A stretch of 64,000 bases of DNA, from contig NC_088647.1 of the NCBI RefSeq assembly GCF_964019385.1, positions 3,286,184-3,350,183 of the forward strand, read 5' to 3'. Origin of the DNA: Sycon ciliatum. Its lineage: Eukaryota; Porifera; Calcarea; Leucosolenida; Sycettidae. The notes under the pieces were generated by a model, which ran no database searches, had not been told where the DNA came from, and saw only the letters and a list, made by a program, of their open reading frames with translations. How positions within the stretch are numbered: the first letter of the stretch is position 1; each line of letters begins with the position of its first letter. Shown one piece after another: positions 641 to 34,797 of the stretch. The translations under genes and the position numbers were made by a program.

Positions 641-1066
641 AATGTAATATGATCACACAATATATGGTCACATAATGTATGATCACACCATGTATGGTCA
701 CACAATGTATGATCACATAATGTATGATCACACCATGTATGGTCACACAATGTATGATCACATAATGTATGATCACACCATGTATGGTCACACAATGTAT
801 GATCAGTTGATCACATAATGTATGATCACACAATGTATGGTCACACAATGTATGATCAGTTGATCATATAATGTATGATCACACCATGTATGGTCACACA
901 ATGTATGATCACATAATGTATGATCACACCATGTATGGTCACACAATGTATGGTCACACAATGTATGATCACACAATGTATGATCACATAATGTATGATC
1001 ACATAATGTATGATCACATAATGTATGATCACACAATGTATGGTCACACAATGTATGATCACACAA
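633..1066. repeat. 15-bp minisatellite with a 45-bp higher-order unit
   Basis: About 29 tandem copies of a 15-mer of the form GRTCACAYMATGTAT. Three variants (gatcacataatgtat, gatcacaccatgtat, ggtcacacaatgtat) recur in that order several times, giving a 45-bp higher-order period in the left half. Two units near 800 and 855 carry an 8-bp insertion that creates GATCAGTTGATC. Because 15 is a multiple of three, several frames on both strands stay open and give spurious Cys/His/Asp-rich ORFs. Confidence 0.92.
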
Positions 1067-1657
1067 GGAAATCTAGGTACAGGTACATCCAGTTACAACC
1101 AAGACAACATTGTCTAGGAACCTCAGTCTCACAAGATAGAGAAAAATGTATGCAGTACATGTAGTTTCACCAGAGGATGCATCCAGCTTGCTCCGGAGCG
1201 GAGAGTGTTCGAATGTCGCGGATCTCCATAATTTTTTTTAAGTGCTGCTGCTGCAGCATTGTCATACTCAAGCTGAACTGATATGGGCTGATTGTCTCGA
1301 AACACTGCGTATTGAGCAGGGAGTGGTACAGTCTTGCAGGCTTTTTCTACAAAGAACACAAACCCGGCTCGAGACAAAAAAATTAGAACAAGAAAGATAA
1401 CAAAGTTGCATGCAGGGAGAACGAAGAAACGATTAGAACACAGAAGTTGAGGGTTGACAGAACAATATTAACTATTAGTCGGGGCTGACTAATAGTATCC
1501 ACTAGCGCAGCTGTGTAGGTGGGGCGTTGTGGACTCCTCCGACCAGAGGTCTCGGTATCCTTGCACACAACGCGCACCAGGGGGGGGGGGGGGGGGGGGG
1601 GGGTAAAAAAGAAAGAAAGAAGAAAGATCAACTCGGATCGTGAACCAATTAAATTAT
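1067..1657. other. Spacer with small hairpin and poly-G tract
   Basis: No gene is recognised. There is a perfect 10-bp hairpin at 1471-1496 (ACTATTAGTC, six-base loop, GACTAATAGT) and a run of 24 G at 1580-1603 followed by (GAAA)n-like sequence. A short minus-strand ORF at 1129-1377 has no recognisable domain. Confidence 0.6.
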
Positions 1658-1875
1658 GGTGAAAAAAGAAGGACAAATGTTACGAGTTATGACTAACTGT
1701 CCACCAACGTAACCAGATCTTATACAGTCAGCGAGTGCGACAAAATGGCACAAAACTGACAAGGAGTACTGAGACATTCGGCGACCTGACACCTAGCTCC
1801 AACACTTCTCCAAGGCGCAAACCAACAACGCTGTGGACTCAGTCCACGCGCCCAGGGCCGGCACGCCTATTGCTT

Positions 1876-4244
1876 TGGTCGGAGATTTCAATATCGACAC
1901 ATCGTCTTCCAGAGCCGCCCAGCTGACGCATCTTCAACACTTCTGCGGTAACTTTAATTTTGAACCACGTCACTGAATCGACGCGTGTTGGACGTGGTAG
2001 GTCCAGAACCACCATAGACCTCCTATTGGCTGAGGACGGTGCAGTGGGCTCTTGCCGCGTTCTCCCGCACAGCCTCAGTGACCACCTCCCCATCTTGGCT
2101 ACCCTTGCCTTCGAAATGCCAACCGTGCCAGTACTCAGATCTAGCCGAAACACAAGAGGAATAAATCTTCCGCAGCTCTGCCAGGACTTGGTCAACTCTC
2201 GTCTAGAAGACTTCAGCACGGCGAAATCCTTGGAAGATATGTGGCAGCTATGGTAGGACAAGGTCACCTCACTCCTTGACAGGCATGCTCCTGTCCAGGA
2301 GCACCGCTTATCCAGCTCTAGACATCAGATTCTTACAAGATCCCCATGGAAAACGGCCGTTTACCATGATGCAGTCCGCGAACGAAATCATGCCCACCAT
2401 GGTTGGCTCCAAAAACCTACGGACACGGAACTTTACGACACATTTTCAGATGCCCGCAAAGCAGCTTGCTCGTCAGCTGAAATCATCCTACTACACACAA
2501 CTACTGGACACGTGTCAATCCAACCCCCGGAAAGCTTGGAAGGTCCTCAACGACCTCTGCGGTCGGAAGAAATCGTCAACTCCTACTCGGCTCACTGCGT
2601 CTGCCCTCAATGCCCAATTCAGTTCAGTTGTCAGCGATCCGCAGCGACCTGATGTCCTATCCCAACCTGAGGGACCGGGCATTGCAGATGGCTTGAACCG
2701 CTTCGAACCAGCCACATGCGAAGAAGTGCTTGCTCTCCTACTGAAGGTAGACGAGAGGAAGGCCACGGGTAGCGACAGAATTCCCTGCTATGTGTTGCGA
2801 CACTGCGCTCGGGTCCTCGCCCCGTCACTGACTATCTTGATGAACGCGTCACTGGCCATCGGGAAAGGTTCCGATAATGCTGAAATTGGCCCATATTCGC
2901 CCCATTTTCAAGGCAGGAGACCCCGAAACTGCTAAGAACTACCGCCCTATATCTTCGCTCCCGGTTGTTTCAAAGATCCTGGCAAGGATTGTGCATAAAA
3001 GGCTCTGTGTGCTCCTAACCGAACATGACCTCCTTCCTGCCGAGCAATTCGCTTACCGAGCCCACCACTCCACGGAGGACGCAGTCTTGTTGGCTGTGGA
3101 TCAATTTTACGAAGCCGCAGACCAGCACCTGCATACCGGCGTGGTGCTCATTGATATGAGCAAAGCTTTCGACAAGGTCCAACACCAGACCTTGCTCCAG
3201 GATCTCTTCGAACTTGGTGTCTCCTCTACGGCACTGGACTGGTTTGCGGACTACCTCAGCGCACGACGCCAGTGTGTGGTCACTGCCAACGGTACATGCT
3301 CAGAGGAAACAGCTTGCACGTGCGGTGTCCCCCAGGGAAGCGTGCTTGGTCCGATATTATTCGCGATCTACACGAGATGTGTCGCATCAGTAGCTGACCC
3401 GGTGCGTACACTAAATTTCGCGGACGACATCATGCTGTACCTGAGCCACGCTAGCGCGCACGCCATCAACATCACCCTTTCCGCAGCAGTGTCGGCTGTC
3501 GCCAGGCTACTCGATGCCAAAGGGCTTATCCTCAACACCGGAAAGACGCAAGTGCTTGCAATCAAAGCTGGACGGCAGGCACACCTCAACCTCCACATTA
3601 CTTGCACTGGCACGCCTCTTGCCCAGATCAGTACGGCTCGCTACCTCGGAGTCACTCTGGACGAAAATCTTCGCTGGTCACCGCAAGTCACCTCTATCGT
3701 CCGACGCACGGCTATGAAGCTGCGGATCCTCCGCCAGATCTGGCACTGCCTAACAGTGCGGCAGGCGATGCTGTATTTCTCTGCCCTTGTCATACCGGAT
3801 ATTCTATATGCGTCGAATGCGTTTCTCCCAGGACTGTCCGCTGAGCAGCGGAACACAGTAGCCAAACTGGATAAACGTTGCATCCGTTGCGTGGCCGATG
3901 AGCACCCATTGGCCCACACTCTTCCCCTGTACACCAGGCTGGGTGTCTGCCCAGTGCTGGAACGAGGGGAATTCAAGCTCCGACTCCTGACATTTAGAAT
4001 CCGTTCTGGAATCGTCAGTGAGCTGTTGTCGTCCCGAATTGTATTGCAAGGCCCGCCGACAGGCATGACCACTCGAGGTCAATTGGGACGCAACCTTCCC
4101 CTCCCCCTGGCCCACAGTGCTTCTGGCGCATGCCGGCCGCTTCTAGCCAGCTGCCGACTCTGGAATGGCCTGCCCGACTGTATGAAGTCCATAGTATCTG
4201 TCCGTGAATTCAAACGCATGCTACGCGTATTTTACTTCGGTTAA
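1876..4244 (+). pseudogene. Endonuclease-reverse transcriptase pseudogene of the LINE
   Basis: Endonuclease remnants are the G-D-F-N-I-D motif near 1882 and the S-D-H-L-P-I-L motif near 2080, in different frames, so a frameshift and stops separate them. The RT begins near 2440. A one-base insertion in an A run near 2866 shifts frame, after which an open stretch continues to the stop at 4242-4244. RT landmarks in order: N-Y-R-P-I-S-S-L-P, M-S-K-A-F-D-K-V, G-V-P-Q-G-S-V-L-G-P, catalytic F-A-D-D (about 3417), Y-L-G-V-T-L-D, and the terminal L-W-N-G-L-P tail. CR1/L2-type architecture is an inference from the order of domains. It cannot make an intact protein. Confidence 0.85.
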
Positions 4245-4440
4245 ATGTAATGGCTTTCGTAACCTGCTGATGAGGCTCGATAGAATCATGCTACGATGAC
4301 CCGACTTGTAAATTTGAGATCCATTTTTTCTGCTCGTCTTGACCCTGCCTCCCCTCATTGCTACTTCCATTTTCGTATTTTTATTTTTATTTATTTTCTC
4401 TTCATTTCTGACTCTTCTTACTGGTTGTCATCGCTTTCAT

Positions 4441-4504
4441 AATATTGGGCAGAACTGCCCGTTTGCCATGCGATGTAAAATACATAAAAAACAACAACAA
4501 CAAC
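4441..4504 (+). other. LINE 3' UTR hairpin and (AAC)n tail
   Basis: GGGCA-GAAC-TGCCC (4447-4460) is a perfect five-base-pair stem 26 bp before the A-rich and (AAC)n tail. The related LINE at 36640-38958 has GGGCA-CCAT-TGCCC in the same place before its own (AAC)n tail. The stem is identical while the loop differs. This suggests a structure that the reverse transcriptase recognises to start target-primed reverse transcription, as known for 3' stem-loops of some other LINEs. Confidence 0.6.
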
Positions 4505-5035
4505 CTTCCAACTTGGAAGGATCAGGTTCGGAAAGGTCCAAGAGGGGAAGGAAAGCGCAATGAAGAAGAGCACGAGCTACACATCACGGCAACAAATAAT
4601 TCGTCTTCGCTTAGCTTCCCCTTTCTATGTTTATTACATAAACTTGAGCCTCCCAAGTTGGGTGGTCTGTTGCTTTGCGTTGTCGAGTTGTAGTACGGCC
4701 GGTATGTCCAATAGTCTTACTAGTTTCGTCATCATCCAGTAACTTTCGGCATTCTTTGTTGTCGTGATGCATAGCTCGTGCTCTTCTTCATTGCACTTTC
4801 CTTCCCCTCTTGGACCTCTCCGAACCTGAGCCTTCCAAGTTGGATGGTTGTTGGTTTGCGCCTTGGAGACGTGTTGGAGCTAGGTGTCCGGTCGCCGAAT
4901 GTCTCAGTACTCCTCGTCAGTTTTGTGCCATTTTGTCGCACTCACTGACTGTATAAGATCTGGTTACGTTGGTGGACAGTTTGTCATAACTCGTAACATG
5001 TTGTCCTTCTTCTTTTTTCACCAAAGAAGAAAGAG

Positions 5036-23530: not shown

Positions 23531-24112
23531 AATCCAATGCATCCAGTCTTCTTTTGAGCAGTACCTGTTCCTGCTCCGCGCATCCCCCTGGTTTCTGATG
23601 TCTCGAACGTGTACTTAAAGGGGAAGTTAAGGTGGCAGTCTGGGTTCAGAGGGTCAAAAAACAAAGTTTCGATTTTCTGTATTTTTTCACTGGCAGCGTC
23701 TTGTGTATGGTCCAAAGGGTTTATCCTGAAAATGTGAGCGTAATCGGGTGCTTCCTTCCGGAGATATAGCCGCGCAAAGTCTGCACAATTGTTTTTGAAA
23801 TACTGAAATATCAGCAAATTTCTACAAAATTTAGGTTTGCACACTATTCCGATTTTTACCGTCAATCTTTGAGCGATTTCATTAAAATTTTCTGGAGCGA
23901 CTCCTGGTACTCCTCTGCGCTGCAGACTGACAGCCGCGCACGATCTTTGTCACCATGGCAACCAAGATAACTTTTGCGCATGCGCAAATTCAAAAAATTC
24001 AAATTTCGACTCTCATGATCTCAGCTGATCGCTCTGCTGTTGAAACTAGTTACTTTTGGAGTAATTGTTTTGGAGTAATTGTTTCTTGGAGCTAACCCCT
24101 TCGTTGGCTACT

Positions 24113-25951
24113 ATGGGGAAGTCTAGAGCCAAGGGAAAGCCCGGACGATCTAAGAAAAGGAAAAGAACGTTCTATGGAGTGTCTCAGGCGCCGAAGGCTC
24201 CCTCTGGTGAAATTTCGCCTGCAAAACAAATTCCTGACTTGCCACTGTCTGATGACGACCTTGAAGTGTCAGCAGAAGCCACGTCTTCAAACAGCGATAG
24301 TGATGGAAGTGGCGGTGAAGTCGACAGCAGTTCCTCCGACAGTGACTTGGATGAAGAGTGTGAGGAAGGGGCGCATGGATTTCGCCTGATTGATCTCGAG
24401 TGCCTTCAGCAGCTTTTGTCAGCTGCAGTTTGTTGCAGTGGCTGTAATGGCGCAGTCACGATCAGCGAATCGCAACGGGGAGGCCTTGCATCATGCCTGG
24501 AGCTTTCCTGTGTTAACTGCGGCGACATAGCAAGCGAATTTATGTCCAAGAAGTTCAATCGGGTCTGGGAGGTGAACAGACGAGCAGTATTCGGAATGCG
24601 ACTGATTGGCCGTGGACGTCAATCAATGGTAAAGCTGGCGGGTGCACTGAATATGCCATCACCTATGAGTCGGTCGACATTTTACAGCCATGCTAAAGGC
24701 CTGCATTCCGCGTCCAAGAGCGTCGCTGAGCGTAGCATGACTGAGGCAGCTGAGAAAGCAGTGTCCGCAGCAGATGGGGGTAGCGATATCGCTGCTTCCT
24801 ATGACGGTACCTGGATGCGCCGAGGATTCGCATCGCTCTTCGGAGCCTTCACTATAATTGCATATGATGTCGGCAAAGTGGTGGACTGCGAAGTGCTTTC
24901 AAAGTTTTGCCACAAGTGCACGCACTTGGCGTCTAGAAAAGAGAAGGGAGAGCTAACCAAAGATGACTATGATCGACAGATTGCCGAACACGATTGCTCA
25001 GTCAACACCACTGTATCAGCTCCTGCCATGGAGAGTGCAGCCGCCAAGACTCTGTGGGCCAGGTCCTTTGAGAGCCGCAAGCTGAGGTACACCACCTACA
25101 TTGGTGATGGAGATACCAAGAGTTTTAAGGCTGTGCGTGACGCTTGTCCGTATGGGCCCGAGGTGCCTGTAGTCAAGGAGGAATGTGTCGGCCACGTTCA
25201 AAAACGCATCGGTACCAGCCTAAGAAAGCTGAAGAAAAACCTTGCGGGCAAGAAGCTTGCTGATGGGCGCACTATAGGCGGACGTGGTCGCCTCACGGAT
25301 GCCATGATCGACAAGCTGCAAGCCTACTATGGCATGGCTGTGCGGAACAACAGCGGAGACTTGCAAGCCATGGCCAGGGCCATATGGGCATCCCTCATGC
25401 ATCGTGCATCCAGCGACAGTAAACCTCAGCACCAGTATTGTCCGCCTGGAATTAACAGCTGGTGTAGATGGCAGCAGCAACAGGCAGGTGGTGATGTCTA
25501 CGCCCACCACAATATCCTGCCAGAGGCAGTATGGAAGGAACTGAAGCCGGTCTACATTCGGTTGTCCGACCGGAGTTTGCTCGAGCGCTGCCAGAAGGGT
25601 GCTACGCAGAATCGCAACGAAGCGTTCAATGGACTCGTGTGGCAGTTGTGTCCAAAGACAGGCTTTGCATCCGCTCCCACTGTCCAGATGTGCGTCTACC
25701 TGGCCGTGGCCTGGTTCAATGATGGAGGTGTGGCAGTGAAACGCGTTCTGGACGAGATGGGCCTCCCTACTGGACACCATACGACACGTCTCATCAAGCT
25801 GCTAGACCGTGAGAGACAGGCACATGCTGCCAGAAAGAAGTCAGAAGAAGGGAAGAGGTCACGAAAGAAGCGAAGGAGGATCAGGAAAGGCATCCAGGAT
25901 GAGCAGCAAGAGGAAGAAGGTTTGACATATGAAGCTGGTGGCTTCGACTAA
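24113..25951 (+). CDS. DDE transposase, Mutator-like family of invertebrates
   Basis: 612 aa from ATG 24113 in one exon. An upstream in-frame ATG at 24065 adds 16 residues, but the start at 24113 opens with a Lys/Arg-rich tail (K-K-R-K-R) typical of nuclear import. An acidic Ser/Asp-rich stretch follows at about 40-85. Next is a Cys cluster, C-C-S-G-C-x-G-A-V and C-V-N-C-G, likely a zinc knuckle. The catalytic RNase H-like core shows Y-D-G-T-W (D231), G-D-G-D-T-K (D332/D334) and N-E-A-F-N (E503), a plausible DDE set, with the conserved E-C-V-G-H-V-Q-K-R. The C terminus is again Lys/Arg-rich. This matches the Mutator-like transposase proteins abundant in cnidarians and other invertebrates. The frame is intact, so the protein could be functional, but its element is interrupted. 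Confidence 0.85.
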   Translation: MGKSRAKGKPGRSKKRKRTFYGVSQAPKAPSGEISPAKQIPDLPLSDDDLEVSAEATSSNSDSDGSGGEVDSSSSDSDLDEECEEGAHGFRLIDLECLQQLLSAAVCCSGCNGAVTISESQRGGLASCLELSCVNCGDIASEFMSKKFNRVWEVNRRAVFGMRLIGRGRQSMVKLAGALNMPSPMSRSTFYSHAKGLHSASKSVAERSMTEAAEKAVSAADGGSDIAASYDGTWMRRGFASLFGAFTIIAYDVGKVVDCEVLSKFCHKCTHLASRKEKGELTKDDYDRQIAEHDCSVNTTVSAPAMESAAAKTLWARSFESRKLRYTTYIGDGDTKSFKAVRDACPYGPEVPVVKEECVGHVQKRIGTSLRKLKKNLAGKKLADGRTIGGRGRLTDAMIDKLQAYYGMAVRNNSGDLQAMARAIWASLMHRASSDSKPQHQYCPPGINSWCRWQQQQAGGDVYAHHNILPEAVWKELKPVYIRLSDRSLLERCQKGATQNRNEAFNGLVWQLCPKTGFASAPTVQMCVYLAVAWFNDGGVAVKRVLDEMGLPTGHHTTRLIKLLDRERQAHAARKKSEEGKRSRKKRRRIRKGIQDEQQEEEGLTYEAGGFD

Positions 25952-26519
25952 GTTCTAGTAAGTTCTAGTTGGACAGACATACCTCCATCTGTACTTGCAC
26001 AGAGCACTTTTTTTCTCCATTTTCCACTGAGTCGCGTACCTCTTAGACAGCGTAGCGAAGAACCTGTAAGTCACAGACCCCATAAACCATACATTTTTGG
26101 AAACTGTGAGCATTTATCAAGGTGCTAAGTGTCATGGATTTTTATATTTGTCTAGTAGCTTTGAGTAAAGTGCTACTGATCGAGGACCTAAATTTTGCGC
26201 GATTGCATGATTTTTGTTTGACAGCTTGAGTACTTTGTTCTGAATATGATTTCAAAATTCCGCTCCACTTAGCACCTAGGTATATGTGAAGGAAATCCTG
26301 TGGAGCACTCAGTTTCTACCAGGGAGTAGTAAAATACAGGGAGGTGACACGCCACTAATCGTGATTTTTGATGGTTGCCTCGCGATTGTTTTTTATTTTT
26401 TAGCAAAAAAACCATTCGTAGAATCCATCTCGAGTATTTGTAAAAGGCCTAATTCCATAAAGAAACCCACACATCTAGAAGAACAGTATTCTTTTGGACG
26501 TTCGCATGTACGCACGTCC

Positions 26520-27374
26520 ATGGTCATTGTGGGGAGAACCAACATCACAGAAAAAATTGCCCCTATCGACGATATGGACAAGGAGAACGGCGGTCACTTC
26601 CTTGAGTAAGTAATGTGTGTTAGCTTCGATGAGCAAGAGTATAAATTTGGGAGCCGAAAATATCACTAGGACACCACATGATCTACTCTTTTCTTGCCTC
26701 AGTTGTGATCAGGTAGTACTTTTCTACCTACCCAACAACGATGAGCATTTCATATTATGGTATGCTGGTAATTTGGACTGAAATGTGATCCTGATTTGGC
26801 ATTGTTTTGACCTAATGTTGTTCTACAGTACTGGCACTCTTGTTGACAGAGGCTTGCCATATAAGAGGAAAAGAATTGACCAGGATGGTGACCTTCCTCC
26901 ACAGCGTGTACTGTCGGACATCAGCGCACTCACCAGTAAGCAACGCTTATTTCTTTATGTTTCTGACTCAGCTGATTACACATGCGGAAACACGGCCGAA
27001 GTCCCCCCCCCCCCCCCCCGCCCCCCCCCCCTCCCACCACACGCACACACTCGCACATGCGCACACACGGTGGCACAGCACACGAGGAACACAACAAGGG
27101 GCGGAGAATGATCATTCCTGAGCTCTTCCGGACTCAAATGACTGTCCAAACCTCGCCCACCCACGCGTGCACACGCGCGCGCACATACAAACACACACAG
27201 TCACCCCCCCCCTCCTACATGCATACACACATGCACACTCCCCCCCCCCCCCCCAAACACACACACACACACACATAGAACATGAGGAACACATTCTTCA
27301 GGTTAGTTGAGTTGATTCACCAATCCTCGCCGCATTACCTAGGCGAATGACAACAACAACACACGCACACACAT

Positions 27375-27413
<39 letters not shown>

Positions 27414-30400
27414 CACACATCATGTACCACACACACATACACACATGCACACACATGCACACACATGCACACACAGTGACACAGTGACACACACACACGG
27501 CAAATGTCACTGAATACGTTCATATAAGACCATGTTTCAATTACTTGTATTTTGTATGATTGTTTGGTTCTGCCCCTTTCTTCATTTTTCTGCCACTTGG
27601 TTTAGATTCATCTGCAACATCCATGGATATGACGACCAATCCTGGTCACACCCAGCCAGTTGCTGGACAGGGCAGCAACACCGACACATCCAAGCCTATT
27701 CTTTGGAGTGGCTCTGAAGCACCGAGTGTGCGTGAAATTACTGTTTACTCCATCCTCATGGAGAAGTTCGGGAATGATAAGCCCTTCCGTGTGCGAAATC
27801 CGCAACAGCCACAATTGCAAGAGGCGGTACGAGCCATCAATCTTGTCCTACCTAACGAAGACCGTGTGTCAAGCGAAAGGCTCAGCAAATACTTTCAGCG
27901 TGCAACAGCAAGAACACCTGGTGCAGGGTTTGGCAAATACCGTGGTAAGCTGCGCTGGGTGCGATTCAGCTCAGTTTTCAGTACAGTACGTGTCACTCAT
28001 TCAGCTTGCCTACAGAAAGCACTGCAAGGGTCAATTGCAGACGAGGAGCGGAAATCCTTGCTCATTTGTATTGGTGAATGCGTAGGAGAATGGGACCCTG
28101 CATCATCTCCTCCATCACTAAAACAAGCTAATGTTCCCCTCGACTTTGATGGCATTAAAAGGGCAGTGCCGACCAACTTCCGGTGGAGAGTAACACTGGA
28201 GAACGGATGCTGTATTATCTGGCACTACAGAACAACAGGTGGTGCTACGGAGCGATCAATAAAGGTTCAACCCAACATGGCATACACAACACACTTTTAT
28301 GACCACAGCCTTCCACTTCTCAACTCTAATCTTCCTGTCACGCTCACAACAACCGAGCAGCTTACAACTTTGCTAACAGCAGTGCAACACGCAACCATAT
28401 GTAAAGGGTTGAATTATGAAAAATATGAGCCACTTTTCAAAGCCAGACTTGATGGAAGCACTTTCAGGTCAAAGGATGGGACGGTCAATGCGTATGCTGA
28501 AGAGTCATACACAACACAGAGGTGCATTCGAACATCGGGCTGTGCAATTCTAGTTAGTGCCACAGGGATATGCAGCACATGTCGACAGTTTGACGGCAGC
28601 CTTCGGAAAGACTTGTCAAGACTTAAGAATCGCACACCTGAATCACGAGCAAGCACTGCGATTACTCACTTAACGAGGGAAGAACTGGTTGACCGCGTGA
28701 GGACCAAGCCCGCTCCAAAGTCTGTGCAACGACAGGCCAAACAATTGGAAGAACTCAATAAAAAAAGGGTGACCACAAAGCACAACGGAGAGTATGCCAC
28801 ATTGTTTACGAAACTAGAGCATGGGCTAGACAAGATACAGGCTCAAGCTAACAATCCTCAGTGCAACTGGAAGAACTGCTCGGAATCATTTAGCACAATC
28901 GAGGAGTTGCAGAACCACATTTATTTCAATCATACGAAAATAATGGAAACTTCCTGTCAGCTTTTCCCAGCGTACGAGTGTCTGTGGTCAGGCTGCAGCA
29001 CTAAACCGTATAAAAGCAAAGCGGCTTTTCATGCGCATGTGCGGAAGCACACGGGAGATTCAGGAGACATCTTGTTTAAATATCTACTTGAGGACCAAGC
29101 CAGGGCACTCACAGTGCCTGATCATCAGATGCGTTGGCATCCCTGCGTTCTACGATGGTGCCTACATCAGCATGCCCGCTCAGCCGCTGCATACGAAGAT
29201 ATGCGCAGTAGCAGACTCCTTCGACTTCCGTCTGGCCGAACTCTCCTCAGGTACCGTAATTTCAATCACCCGCAGTCGGGATGGAACGATGGCACCTTGG
29301 ATGAAATGCGGTCTGTTTATGATAAATTTACTGACGCAGGAAAGGGGCAAGTAGACCGGGCCAACACAGGCGGGATCTACTTCGATGAAGTTAAAATAAA
29401 AGAAGGCCTAATATGGGACCCGCGAAGCGATGAACTGATTGGGTTCGTCGACTTTGCGGGTGAGCCAAGTGATGTATTGCAAAATTCAATAGCGACCCAT
29501 GCATTCCAATTTCACTTCCGTTCACTGTTTTCTTCTTTTTATTATCCATGTGCGTATTTTTTAACAAGATCTGTCAAAGCTAGCCACATAGACAGAATGT
29601 TTTGGCAAGGAGTTTCCGCGTTATATTCCAGAGGGTTTCATGTTGTGCTGGCTTGTTGCGACGGTGCAGCAACCAACCGTTTGTTTATGAAGATGAACTC
29701 AGATGTTGATGATGAAGTACCTTACCGAACAGTCAACCCATACACTGGAGAGCCCATATTTTTTGTGTCAGACCCCACTCACCTGATCAAAAAGTTTCGT
29801 AACAACTTATCCAGCAGTGGAACACATCCAAGTTCAACACGACTTTTGACCTACAGAGGAGAACCAATAGTTTGGGCACAGGTACGAGCAGTGTATGTTA
29901 GAGACAGCCAACGCCCATTGCGAGCAACACCACTACGTCATGAGCATGTGCACTTAACGGCATTTTCGAAGATGAGGTCCAAGTTGGCATTCAACGTTTT
30001 TAGTAGCCATGTCATCAAGGAAATGGTCACATCAGAACCAAACGCCACTGTGGCAGTCAGACAATTTCTCGCCAGAGTACAAGATCTCATTCAAGTGTTC
30101 ACGTCCCGTGACCGCATACAGTCCAATGACTGTGCTAGTATGCAACTCTTTTCATCTGCATACCAGTGGTTTCGTGAGTGGAAAATTGATTGTATGGCCA
30201 GAAACAACCAAAGTATGACCCAAGCCAACAAAGAGTTCATCTCCTCGCAGCTTTTCAAGGATATATCAATTACGTACTATGGCATACATGGCTTAGTAGA
30301 GTGGGTAGCTGCAAGTAACATGAATGCAACAGTTAAGCGTTATATACTACTGTACCGTATCAACCAGGATTTCTTAGAGCAATACTTTGGCATGCAGCGC

Positions 30401-30529
30401 TCTGGAAGTGGATGTAATAACAACATGACTGCGTATGGTTACGGCTACAAGGCGAATTCGCTTGCACAATCCCGTGTGCTTTCCCAGAACCTTGGCACAG
30501 CAGCAGTTAACATGCCTCTACCTCAGTAG
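26520..30529 (+). CDS. P-element-type transposase without a THAP domain
   Basis: Exons 26520-26605, 26829-26935 and 27606-30529 join in phase to 1,038 aa, stop TAG at 30527. Donors GTAAGT/GTAAGC, acceptors CTACAG/TTTAG. The RNase H-like core has G-I-Y-F-D-E (D658), C-C-D-G-A-A-T-N-R (D750) and D-P-T-H-L-I-K-K (787 on), the last belonging to the GTP-binding insertion in P transposase. Two C2H2 fingers stand at about 484-509 (C-x4-C-x12-H-x4-H) and 523-545. Residues about 95-170 form an unrecognised, possibly DNA-binding region. No THAP C2CH signature is seen, although canonical P transposase and THAP9 start with one. The frame is intact. The start is uncertain: an in-frame ATG at 26286 lies outside the element, so 26520 is preferred. 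Confidence 0.85.
26999..27500. repeat. Poly-C and (CA)n tracts in intron 2 of the P transposase gene
   Basis: Poly-C at 27003-27032 and 27240-27254, with (CA)n blocks at 27257-27277 and 27379-27409 among other CA-rich sequence. They fill most of the 670-bp intron 26936-27605. Confidence 0.9.
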
Positions 30530-31302
30530 GTGAGAGAACCTGTCCAATAGTCAGCACAATGACAGCTAACTCGTGTATGATGACCGCATCATACTGCATA
30601 TTTGCCGCATATTGGCCTGTTTTCGCCCCCGGTAAGTATGCGCATAAGTTTAGAATTTTTTGTCAGCGCTAATCCGTGGGGACAGACTTATACTTATCAC
30701 TCTTCTGTATCGCCGTCCACTAATTCTTGTGATCCTTGACTGGTCCTATAATGCCCATATCGCAGTAATATCGACTGTTTATATCGACTGTTTATATTGA
30801 CTCTTCAAGAGAACACTGCTAGTTATGTTGTACATTGTCGTTGTATGCAATCTGATATAGCACAGTATTCCATAGCGTGGTTGGCTGAGTGGTTATCTTC
30901 AGTTTTTGAGTGGCTATCTTCAGTTTTTCTTTCTTGCCTGTTAAGCCGTGCAGCGGAATTATTTTACTGTGTTGTTTATTCCAATCGTTTCCTTTCATCT
31001 GTGTGTGCCTTCTGATGTGCTGTGTGCTGTCAACCTCGGATAAGAATGGCTGCGCTCTCATTATTCCATCAGAAGCATTCTGGTATTTACTGCTCGAGTC
31101 GGGTTTACGTTGTTTCCCTGTGTTTGCGTGAAAAGGTCGAAGAAGAACAACACCTATCGAAAGGTGTGTGTTGTATGAGTGTCTACAGTGACATTATTAG
31201 CACGTCGGTGCCGCACTCACACGGGCACAGACGGACACACACACACACACACACACACCTGCAGACACAAATGTACGTAGATGTGGTGAATGGCAATCTT
31301 AC
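30530..31302. other. Spacer between the two convergent P-element genes
   Basis: Holds the 3' UTR of the transposase gene and probably a short last exon of the SAP gene. Tandem TTTATATCGACTG repeats lie at 30766-30803, a direct repeat of GAGTGGTTATCTTCAGTTTT near 30890-30930, and a (CA)n tract at 31232-31257. Minus-strand acceptors near 31190 and 31048 each allow only a handful of codons before a stop. Confidence 0.45.
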
Positions 31303-34042
31303 CTATCTGTTCAGCAAAGAGGGATTTGACTCGCTCTTGAAGAGCGCCTTTGTTGCCTGCACGAGACAGGGGGCTGAGACTAAGTATACTCTGCAGTTCC
31401 TTCACACTCAGATCACCAATGACCTTTGCTTTATCGAGCTCTGGCACGCTGTTAATAGCTGATCGAACCGCATTAAGGTCTTTTCTGCCAATCGCTGCCC
31501 GCACGGCTACAACATTCCGGCTGACTGCTTCTTTCTGGCGCGAGGATGACGTTGGTGGGCGTAAACCAGCACGCAGAGCAATTGACGTAGTTGATGGTGC
31601 GAGGTGATTTTCACGGATTATTTGTTTTTGCTTGCTCTTCACAAACATCGTCACGATGCGCTGTAGGAGATCTTTGCCGCTGTCATCTCCAACAATAGCA
31701 GAATACTGTTGAAGAACAGTGGCATCGGCCAGAAGTAGCTGCTTGACTTCTTGTGGAGCTGACTTTCCAGCAGTAAGAAGCGCAGTTTGGAGGTGTTCCT
31801 CGCACAGCTTGTGCAGGCGAATAAACAGAGGCAAGCAATGCTCGCTCAGGGAAAACAGATGCCTGCTGAACGCTGCGGTGCTCGCTAGGTCCTCATCACT
31901 ACTAGCACTGGACGAGTCTGATGTCGAATCACCACCATAGACATGTTTGGATGCAAGGATATCACATCCAAAATTTGGGATAAGACTCAGAAGAGCATGC
32001 TTTGGCTCTTTCTCCCGTAGAAGCTGTTTCCGAACAGCAACAATACACCAGCCGGAATGATATCGTACCGATGCGTTGGCTGCACGATCCATTACGTCGG
32101 AAGCTAGTCGGGCTGACCTCGTATCTGCCAGACGTGGTGTTGTTGCTACACTTGTGCTACCATCAATCACACTGTCAACGAGTTGAGCAAGCAGTGATGA
32201 TTGCACTTGTCTCTCTATGGCACAACACAAAAAAAGAATGAAGCACAGTGAAAAGTATAGGCAGTTAGCGTAACAGAGTAGTGCAGTCCAGGCGTGCATC
32301 ATAGTGGAGTGGGTGAAGGGAATATAAAGTTAAGCAATTTTGCTCATTCAACCCAGCAGTTTCGCTTAGCTTTCTTCGAGTTATCATTTATCCTGAAGTT
32401 CCCCTCTGACAAGAAGTCAGTCAAGGCTTTCCCCACACAAAGCAAAGTAACTTACTTCTGTCCTGATCCAGTTCCACAAAATGAGGCGACACAGTCTGGA
32501 GGAAGTGTGCCCATGCAATGCCTAGGGAAGGAGGCACACCTCTCCGCAAACGGGACAGCTCTACACGCTGTGCGTGAGTAGACTGTTGTTGTTGTACACG
32601 ATGCCGTCCTTCCTCGAGCAGAATGCGGACGGGCGCAGTGCTCCTGCCAGCGTCGACAGCAATATCTGCTGCCACGGATGCATCAGCCTTCTGGTGCAGC
32701 AGCAAACTCTTGTTTTTACTTGTAGCTGAACACAGTAGATAGATACATACACACTGCGATTACCTTCAGTGAATGAATGCTACTTTCCTCTCTTCTGTGA
32801 GAAAATAATAATTATTCCCATAGCTATGCAGAAGACGTTGCTTCAGTAAAAATAATAATTATTCCCATAGCTATGCAGAAGACGTTGCTTCAGTAACGTC
32901 TGGCGCTAGCCAGGGTCCACACAGCTTTAATTTGGTGTTTGTGTGTTTGTGTCACGCCTGGCGCTATCCCGTATCTGTCCCGTACCGTACCGTACCATCA
33001 AACACAGCTGGCCAAATACAGCTGGCCGCACTATTCAAATAGGGCTTTCAAACGCAAGATCATAACGTGAAGCAACTTGGAAGAATGAGTATCAATGCGA
33101 AGTGTATGGGGGAATGCATGTAGGGCGATAGTGCGGGTTCGAATCCCAGGTAATGCGTGAAAAAATAGAAGAATTGAAAAAATTATAACATCCCTATTCT
33201 TTTTTTGCAGTCATCAAGACTCGAAACGGGGACCCTCGCTTGTAGCCAGCGATGCTCTAACCACTGAGCTATGTTGTAGCCGTCATCCCAACAGAGACCG
33301 TTCAACATTCTCTTCAGACTTCGTAACTCACACTTCCTGTGAATCCACACAGGCGGGTGGGACGCATGCGCAGCCCTCACTGTAAACCAGGGAGTAGTAA
33401 CTAGTCCCTGCTGTAAACCAAACTATAAACCACAATACATGTATTGACACAAGAGAGAGAGATTGGAAGCAGTGTCGCAAATAATATTAGCAACACCTCT
33501 CGCGTACAAGTAGTAGAAAGTAATTCAGCGTTCTTTCCCCTTCCGTCTTGTGGACACCTTCAGCACGATGTACTAGCTGCTTATACCGATTTCTCCTCGT
33601 GTGTCGAGGACACACAGTTTCACAGTTTCTTCCAGTTTGTCTTGACCGCTGCTTGTCGGCATCTGGAAAGTTCTTCCAGGGTCTTCATGGACACACTGAG
33701 CTTATTCAGCGGAGCAACCAGACGTCACCTGTGGCCATTGTCAACTTTGGCCGCCCACGAGGCGCTTTGTTGCCCTTGTCAAAATAGCCGCTCATGGCTT
33801 CTTGCGGTGGCGTGTCCGTGTCCATCCGTAGCACATGAGAAAATAATTAAAAAAACAATAAGGAAGTTGTCGATGCCATAGAGATATTTCTTACCTTCCG
33901 CCCACGTCAGGATATCTTCACAACGGATCGACTGCAACCCAAGCGGAGGAGTTGTATCCTCCTGCTCTGCAGGACTTTCCTCCATATCACAGTCAGAGCA
34001 CTCGTCTGGAGGCTCAATATCCATCGCTATCGAAGAAGCCAT
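31303..34042 (-). CDS. SAP-like accessory protein of the P element
   Basis: Minus-strand exons 34042-33895, 32725-32456 and 32214-31303 join in phase (1 to 1 at each junction) into at least 443 codons. A donor GTAAGA follows, so a short last exon is expected. The N terminus is acidic (M-A-S-S-I-A-M-D-I-E-P-P-D-E), and the middle has a Ser/Asp patch. The last about 35 residues read L-S-V-K-E-L-Q-S-I-L, S-R-A-G-N-K-G-A-L-Q-E-R-V, the helix-extended-helix pattern of a SAP DNA-binding motif. It lies wholly inside the P element, opposite to the transposase, with its 5' end about 0.5 kb from the right TIR. Function is unknown. A role in binding transposon DNA or modifying transposition, as second proteins do in other elements, is an inference. 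Confidence 0.7.
32802..32896. repeat. 47-bp tandem duplication
   Basis: Two essentially identical copies of AAATAATAATTATTCCCATA... through GTTGCTTCAGTAA, in intron 1 of the SAP gene. They look recent. Confidence 0.88.
33205..33285 (-). other. tRNA-like SINE head
   Basis: The minus strand has an A box (TAGCTCAGTGGTTAGAGC, 33254-33271) and a B box (GTTTCGAGTCT, 33217-33227) at tRNA spacing. The putative anticodon loop lacks U33 and the acceptor stem does not pair, so it is a tRNA-derived repeat, not a tRNA gene. A separate plus-strand B-box motif, GGTTCGAATCCC, lies at 33138-33149. Both are in intron 1 of the SAP gene. Confidence 0.6.
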
Positions 34043-34797
34043 ACTAGTATAACTACAACAAGTACAAGCGTGAAACGCGAGAGGAGAAAGATGACAGTAA
34101 ACTCTCCAACTTGCAAGGGAGACAACATAAAAATAGCAGTGACAACCAGTAACAACCAGGTCAGAAAAGTAATCAAAGAACTACTTACTGAAAAATCTAC
34201 ATGATCCGGAAAGATCGAAAGTCCAAAGTCCAACCATGCTAGCTCACGATCACAGGCTTTTTGGAGCAGCTGGATCGCGCGACTCGCACTCGTCCAGTGT
34301 CCTAAAAAGTATAATAATCAGGCAGTCAGTAGTAAAAATACTACAACCAACTCCCTCGTATCAACAAGTACTCGAGCGCATACTTTTGGAGGTCGATCCG
34401 CGCGCCGAACCGCGGATACATGATTCTGTAACCATGGGCACCAGCTGCCGTTGCGTCATCTTACCCCAATCTCGCCCGCCGGGTGAAAACGGGTGTGAGG
34501 CAATCGTCGAACTGGCCGCGGATGCTCGTGTCACCTCCCTGTATTTTACTACTCCCTGGTTTCTACCCAGCTTCTTTCTGCGTTTGCATATTGCGTCTAA
34601 GGTATTGGTGGTACGGCATAATCGCAGATTTGACTATTGTGTCTGCGGATTCCCATGTGTGAGCTTGATTTATACTTCATTGGACTTAGTGAAATACACT
34701 GGGTATGTGGTCAAGATTTGAGCAAAATTCATCAATTATTATGGAAGTTACGGCTGTGTTCATGCGGTCGGGCCGCGAACCCAGACTGCCACCTTAA

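Follow-up and report, generated by a model that had tools for sequence, protein, structure and literature searches.

The 64-kb stretch of the Sycon ciliatum genome analyzed here (the window) contains a P element at positions 26320-34558, 8,239 bp long, in which a predicted transposase gene and a second gene (gene 2) lie tail to tail on opposite strands (Table 1). The terminal inverted repeats (TIRs) of the element are identical over 32 of 32 bp and are flanked by a perfect 8-bp target site duplication (TSD), GTTTCTAC. In a scan of the entire 64 kb with an exact 13-base seed and arms 1-12 kb apart, this was the sole pair that combined a perfect 8-bp TSD with 20 or more matches among 40 end bases. 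All exon models for the two genes are predictions from the DNA sequence.

Table 1. Features of the P element in the window, and related copies elsewhere in the genome that carry both genes between one pair of TIRs and TSDs
Feature	Position	Strand	Length	Remarks
Left TSD GTTTCTAC	26312..26319			From the sequence
Left TIR	26320..26351	+	32 bp	100% complementary to right arm
Transposase exon 1 (predicted)	26574..26605	+		GTAAGT donor
Transposase exon 2 (predicted)	26829..26935	+		CTACAG acceptor, GTAAGC donor
Transposase exon 3 (predicted), including stop	27606..30529	+		N-terminal domain, two C2H2 fingers, RNase H core
Two C2H2 zinc fingers	28862..29050	+		Cys/His invariant in 5/5 families aligned
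First catalytic Asp codon	29384..29386	+		FDEVKI
Second catalytic Asp codon	29660..29662	+		CCDGA
DPTH	29771..29782	+		[C/D](2)H motif of P transposases
Catalytic Glu codon	30377..30379	+		NQDFLEQYFG
Gene 2 exon 3 (predicted), to stop	31217..32214	-		Relatives in families A, B, C, D, E, F
SAP domain of gene 2	31319..31414	-		Pfam and PDB profile matches
Conserved gene-2 motif FVKSKQKQ	31622..31645	-
Conserved gene-2 motif around YHSGWCIVAVR	32024..32062	-
Gene 2 exon 2 (predicted)	32456..32725	-
High-copy repeat	32859..33218		~360 bp	Inside gene-2 intron 1
Putative excision footprint of sibling	33380..33418			Gene-2 intron 1
Gene 2 exon 1 (predicted), acidic N terminus	33895..34042	-		Similar first exons in families A and D (D by eye)
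Right TIR	34527..34558	-	32 bp	Paired with left arm
Right TSD GTTTCTAC	34559..34566			From the sequence
Second window-family copy	C5:26666528-26673647		7,120 bp	TIR and 8-bp TSD
Family A copy	C11		6,939 bp	TIR and 8-bp TSD
Family B copy	C14		7,392 bp	TIR and 8-bp TSD
Family B copy	C3		7,474 bp	TIR and 8-bp TSD; one arm with small insertion
Family C copy	C8:24.81 Mb		7,541 bp	TIR and 8-bp TSD; one arm with small insertion
Family F copy	C5:34.34 Mb		9,200 bp	TIR and 8-bp TSD; one arm with small insertion

The transposase is predicted to be encoded by three exons, joined across GT-AG introns into one open frame of 1,020 amino acids (aa). Its catalytic residues, numbered from position 27608, are D593, D685, and E924, with DPTH at residues 722-725. 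The P superfamily is characterized by an RNase H core of D, D, and E with a [C/D](2)H motif past the second D (PMC8230255). In an alignment of the window protein with four relatives found in the same genome, 38-40% identical to it, both Asp residues and DxxH were present in all five, and the Glu in four, the family-F frame being unaligned there. Pfam matched the window exon to the TNP-like RNase H N (E 1.3e-19) and RNase H C (E 2.5e-5) models, which were found in five and three of the five aligned transposases, respectively. The GTP-binding insertion (TNP-like_GBD) was found in four of the five (best E 5.8e-6), the window protein giving no match at E 0.1. Further, a profile of the five relatives matched the solved Drosophila P transposase structure in PDB (E 2.2e-16) over a region spanning the second Asp, DxxH, and Glu, and the C2H2 fingers matched GLI/ZIC fingers in PDB in a profile search. 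No THAP domain was found by Pfam in any of the five transposase exons; a THAP-like C2CH spacing occurs upstream in one of seven families (A), in a repeat-rich stretch, and is a spacing match only. THAP domains, described in a review as restricted to animals (PMC7776569), are plentiful in the host genome (150 of the 150 scored, the best of 590 candidates), which makes an animal host likely. Judged by its predicted protein sequence, the transposase belongs to the P superfamily. Membership of PIF/Harbinger was ruled out by the TSD of 8 bp rather than 3 bp, together with the P-type transposase.

Gene 2 is predicted to encode 471 aa in three exons on the minus strand, again with GT-AG introns, and in the window copy its final codons extend into an AC microsatellite. 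The exon-3 protein can be aligned across six families, the window's own (W) and A, B, C, E, and F, which have in common the motifs YH[AGS]GWC (judged on the five alignment rows covering that part), F[LMV][KQ]SK[QH]KQ, and [AS]LR; among the matches listed, tblastn E-values range from 5e-18 to 3e-32 in families A, B, C, D, and F, with 3e-10 in family E. Pfam recognized a SAP domain in four of the six gene-2 family members (best E 1.9e-10), the window match being weak when taken alone (14.5 bits, under the Pfam cut-off of 23.9), and found no enzymatic domain. Searched against PDB, the gene-2 profile matched SAP regions, the best being that of thyroid autoantigen (E 4.2e-4), which we take to be Ku70, with Tho1 and others at E 0.007-0.2. 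The AlphaFold model of the protein is mostly helical, with a mean predicted local distance difference test score (pLDDT) of 71.6 and a predicted template modeling score (pTM) of 0.49; its high-probability Foldseek matches are short (41-54 columns) and include the MKL1 SAP domain and the 3'hExo exonuclease, the latter presumably also through its SAP domain. A five-exon model of gene 2 was dropped because the protein in families A and D appears to start at the equivalent of window exon 1, and because nothing better than a weak match over 19 residues in family D and a decayed match in a diverged sibling element on C1 supported the two additional window exons. Taken together, these analyses bear out the original prediction as regards the element's structure, namely perfect 32-bp TIRs with a perfect 8-bp TSD, an intact P-type transposase in three exons, and a convergent three-exon gene with a SAP-like C terminus.

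The two genes were surveyed across the window's own 538-Mb assembly. The transposase search gave at least 48 matches (46 of 220 candidates scored), grouped into 34 loci, while gene 2 gave at least 121 matches in one search (129 of 163 candidates scored) and 56 in another; 38 gene-2 matches were used for pairing loci, and the others, for the most part short pieces of family A, were checked by eye, none being near a transposase locus. Among the matches listed, gene 2 stands convergent beside the transposase in all 12 loci where the transposase match extends over at least 700 aa (one in family W, three in A, four in B, and one each in C, D, E, and F; one of these loci was assembled from two adjoining matches), and within 10 kb at 17 of the 34 loci when all fragments and distant P loci are counted. 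Two of the 17 loci without a convergent gene 2 have it close by in rearranged order, and the C1:48.33 Mb locus retains, at the DNA and exon level, only the exon-1 sequence of gene 2. Nine distant P loci (at most 33% identity) had no gene-2 match within 10 kb, nor, by eye, had the 16 loci beyond the 34 that came from a genome search with the Pfam P RNase H domain (44 matches), a comparison that a strongly diverged gene 2 could escape in both cases.

The seven families (W and A to F) share 36-49% identity in the transposase and 22-36% in gene 2. A script found one TIR/TSD pair enclosing both genes in five families, in 7 copies including that of the window, one of which has a truncated transposase; family D retains its left end, but its right end is damaged and there is no TSD, and no ends were found for family E. 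The TIR sequences are related yet family-specific, starting with CAGGGAG and then varying. The 8-bp TSD is perfect in the 7 copies and also in two non-autonomous copies, L075 and L076. Trees of the transposase and of gene 2 have three of four internal splits in common (W+D, A+E, and A+E+C), and by arithmetic 9 of the 945 topologies for seven taxa are this close to a given tree. Because the linkage holds in 12 of 12 long loci and in seven families, with shared TIR/TSD ends and three of four splits in common, gene 2 is, on these comparisons, a maintained component of the element rather than a one-off capture. Its long co-occurrence with the transposase in related families suggests a role for the second protein in aiding or controlling transposition. 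In family F (C5:34340285-34349526), a second directly oriented TIR lies past the right end and TSD, at 34349493, preceded by the same octamer, GTGGTACC; this may reflect a tandem or a repeated insertion.

Insertion sites conform to a palindromic preference similar to GTCCGGAC. The consensus of 19 flanks (nine two-sided duplications and 10 single-end flanks, with the damaged family-D right end left out) is GT[TG]nn[AC]AC, with G at position 1 in 27 and T at position 2 in 32 of the 38 flanks obtained by reading both strands. In D. melanogaster, GTCCGGAC itself is the P element target motif, which likewise starts with GT and ends with AC (PMC3276498).

Several observations point to recent activity. 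The second copy of the window family differs by two substitutions in 7.1 kb, one of them in a C-rich tract, and by small indels in repeat tracts, and a single 1,117-bp deletion has removed the 3' part of its transposase. Its gene 2 is kept, the only change being a 4-bp AC insertion that shifts the last codons (open frame of 378 instead of 370 aa). The window TIR, searched as a 30-mer with up to three mismatches, marks 274 + 280 = 554 ends in the genome, compared with 0 + 0 for a reversed control. Among 100 such places listed, 76 form 38 facing pairs by eye, of which 31 span 816-927 bp, five 1.1-1.4 kb, and two 5.3-5.6 kb, and many of the ends sit in miniature inverted-repeat transposable elements (MITEs) of ~885 bp. 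For example, L076, a MITE of ~0.9 kb with an 8-bp TSD, contains neither the catalytic exon nor gene 2 (BLASTN against the element). The same holds for the interior of L075 (C1:50000210-50005463), which has perfect window-family TIRs 5,254 bp from end to end and the TSD GTTACAAC; its stop-to-stop frames reach 250 aa and are partly microsatellite. A second long TIR pair, 5.6 kb apart, lies at C1:94003757. The original prediction of a recently active, two-gene P lineage is thus supported by the near-identical second copy and by the survey of diverged families, and the observation that it named as counting against it, full-length copies with the same TIRs and no trace of gene 2, was not seen, the two gene-2-less copies of the window family that were examined, L075 and L076, being also without the catalytic exon.

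Deletion derivatives occur in other families as well. In family B, both genes are present in four copies of 7.4-7.8 kb, and a further three copies, of ~4.1 kb, have an open 395-aa gene-2 frame; in one of the latter (L077), B positions 979-4266, the interval holding the transposase frame, are deleted. A family-B end pair 4.6 kb apart is found on C13. Family A is represented by the derivative L073, which has a truncated gene 2 and in which no transposase was seen, and from their scores and frame lengths we infer that ~80 short gene-2 matches (residues 4-93) are similar to it. Gene-2 fragments of two different families also form tandem arrays with ~0.5-kb spacing at C1:54075340-54080086, where open frames reach 232 aa, and C1:76508326-76511134; these may be satellites that arose from gene 2, or sequences under selection.

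The short segment in gene-2 intron 1 in which 13 bp from the left TIR, followed by 10 bp similar to the right TIR (one mismatch), lie between two copies of CTGTAAAC is probably the footprint left by excision of a sibling element. Drosophila P transposase makes cuts staggered by 17 nt (PMC7776569), with which the 13 and ~10 nt retained here are compatible, although this is not proof. The end flank of the diverged sibling on C1 (C1:48330182) is the same octamer, CTGTAAAC, either by coincidence of target preference or through shared history.

The same intron holds a repeat of ~360 bp that occurs at no fewer than 36 other places with 90-97% identity, adjoins an exact 47-bp tandem duplication (32802-32895), and contains what we take to be a tRNA-like GGTTCGAATCCC box. 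Directly upstream of the P element, window positions 24065-25951 contain an open frame of 628 aa for a Mutator-like transposase (Pfam Mutator E 2.2e-67), around which a 10-base-seed scan found no TIR with an 8-10-bp TSD. Inverted repeat arms ~3.2 kb apart with 39 of 40 end bases matching, at 1719-4957, are possibly another transposon.

We consider it probable, on balance, that the element is a cut-and-paste P transposon of a two-gene lineage in which gene 2 serves the transposase as an accessory, DNA-binding partner. In this model, the transposase would bind its own ends through the C2H2 fingers and/or its unassigned N-terminal domain, in place of THAP, while the gene-2 protein, acting in trans, would contribute to end binding, synapsis, targeting, or repair; the DNA-binding function that it would supply might even replace THAP. 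The transposase would act in trans on complete and short copies alike, so that MITEs would be moved by proteins from a few complete copies.

The element shares with the Drosophila P element and THAP9 the RNase H core (D, D, DxxH, and E) and the 8-bp TSD, and with the Drosophila P element the occurrence of internally deleted copies, the GT...AC target motif, and the TIR length, 32 bp here and 31 bp there (PMC7776569). By contrast, two conserved C2H2 fingers were found instead of THAP, and the copies are 6.9-9.2 kb instead of 2.9 kb. Further, canonical P elements have a single gene with a splice-form repressor, and the second product in Drosophila arises by splicing (PMC7776569), whereas here a second product would come from an independent, convergent gene. 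No two-gene P element was found among the papers listed by the literature search, which left out Repbase and subscription papers. No relatives of the transposase and gene 2 were confirmed in IMG/VR or GTDB contigs, and none of the transposase in phage records.

A functional analogy is offered by PIF/Harbinger, where a catalytic protein and a probable DNA-binding protein are likewise encoded by separate, independent genes and MITEs are moved in trans. Harbinger differs in its 3-bp TSD, in its catalytic family, and in that its ORF1 is Myb-like rather than SAP (PMC2836001). Harbinger requires both ORF1 and the transposase, and ORF1 of the zebrafish element binds to the TIRs and must be present for the transposase to localize to the nucleus (PMC2836001). 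We therefore take this system as a working model for the role of gene 2. A stricter version, in which a THAP-less C2H2 P transposase and a SAP protein that has taken over end recognition or synapsis are both obligatory, would make the element the P-superfamily counterpart of the Harbinger system, and can be put forward only tentatively. Another parallel is offered by Kolobok transposons, which target TTAA. In these DNA transposons of animals and other organisms, too, single lineages have gained accessory genes (KolX, nucleases, and helicases), although Kolobok is another superfamily and its description includes no SAP protein, the word 'SAP' being absent from the text (PMC9587614). Accessory genes are thus already known in Kolobok and Harbinger, and what would be new here is a P element with a second gene.

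Several points weigh against an accessory partner. Any requirement of gene 2 for transposition is putative, and the Foldseek search with its model gave no match in PDB at E 0.001. Evolution is faster in gene 2 than in the transposase, and the fourth split differs between the trees, with F joining A+E+C in that of the transposase (91%) and B in that of gene 2 (47%). Five partial loci of the lineage had no gene-2 match within 10 kb among the matches listed, including a truncated family-A copy (C8:22904868) and an open frame of 433 aa (C5:9642633). Identities between families at codon positions 1, 2, and 3 (0.39/0.53/0.30 in gene 2 and 0.53/0.62/0.33 in the transposase) are consistent with selection on the protein sequence of both genes, but the protein-guided alignment favors such a pattern and the comparison lacks an unrelated-protein control. 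Finally, derivatives that keep gene 2 without the transposase or its 3' part, three in family B and one in the window family, fit a regulator at least as well. A regulator comes next after an accessory partner in our ranking of gene-2 functions. In this main rival explanation, gene 2 would repress transposition or act as a titrator, and would be the equivalent, encoded by a gene of its own, of the Drosophila 66-kDa and KP repressors. Such a role would explain why the ~4.1-kb family-B copies, L077 with no transposase frame among them, and the second window-family copy retain an open gene 2, and small non-autonomous Drosophila P elements are often able to encode repressors, e.g., of the KP type (PMC7776569). 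However, the three family-B copies are of equal size and may stem from one deletion, L073 and the matches resembling it hold only a truncated gene 2, and it is not obvious that a repressor would be retained in every complete copy across such divergence. We regard a regulatory role as rather unlikely.

A role as an anti-silencing or donor-break repair helper that leaves catalysis untouched appears improbable: the SAP region of thyroid autoantigen gave the best PDB profile match, and various nuclease and helicase helpers are found in Kolobok lineages (PMC9587614), but gene 2 has no enzymatic domain recognized by Pfam. The remaining explanations have very little to recommend them. DNA transposons can capture genes, and the 5.25-kb copy L075, with the same TIRs, does contain DNA unlike the element. 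It is nevertheless scarcely credible that gene 2 stems from a single capture of a host gene or is an unrelated neighbor enclosed by chance, since this is contradicted by the family survey, in which gene 2 keeps the same side and orientation in seven families, family-specific TIRs surround both genes in five, and the trees largely agree. Similarly, hAT transposons also show 8-bp TSDs and a CAGGG start. Both are seen here, and because the hobo target motif GTNCGNAC resembles the P-type preference and would fit as well (PMC3276498), the target motif alone does not discriminate between P and hAT. However, the matches of the transposase are to P-type RNase H models and to the solved P structure, its Pfam matches include no hAT family, and hAT membership is thereby ruled out for practical purposes.

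P elements are the classic one-gene transposon of eukaryotes and a main genetic tool, whereas the lineage described here has kept a second gene through long divergence, and no match to gene 2 was found at the more distant P loci of this genome. With near-identical copies, MITEs, and natural derivatives that carry gene 2 only, S. ciliatum would make an accessory role in P transposition directly testable.

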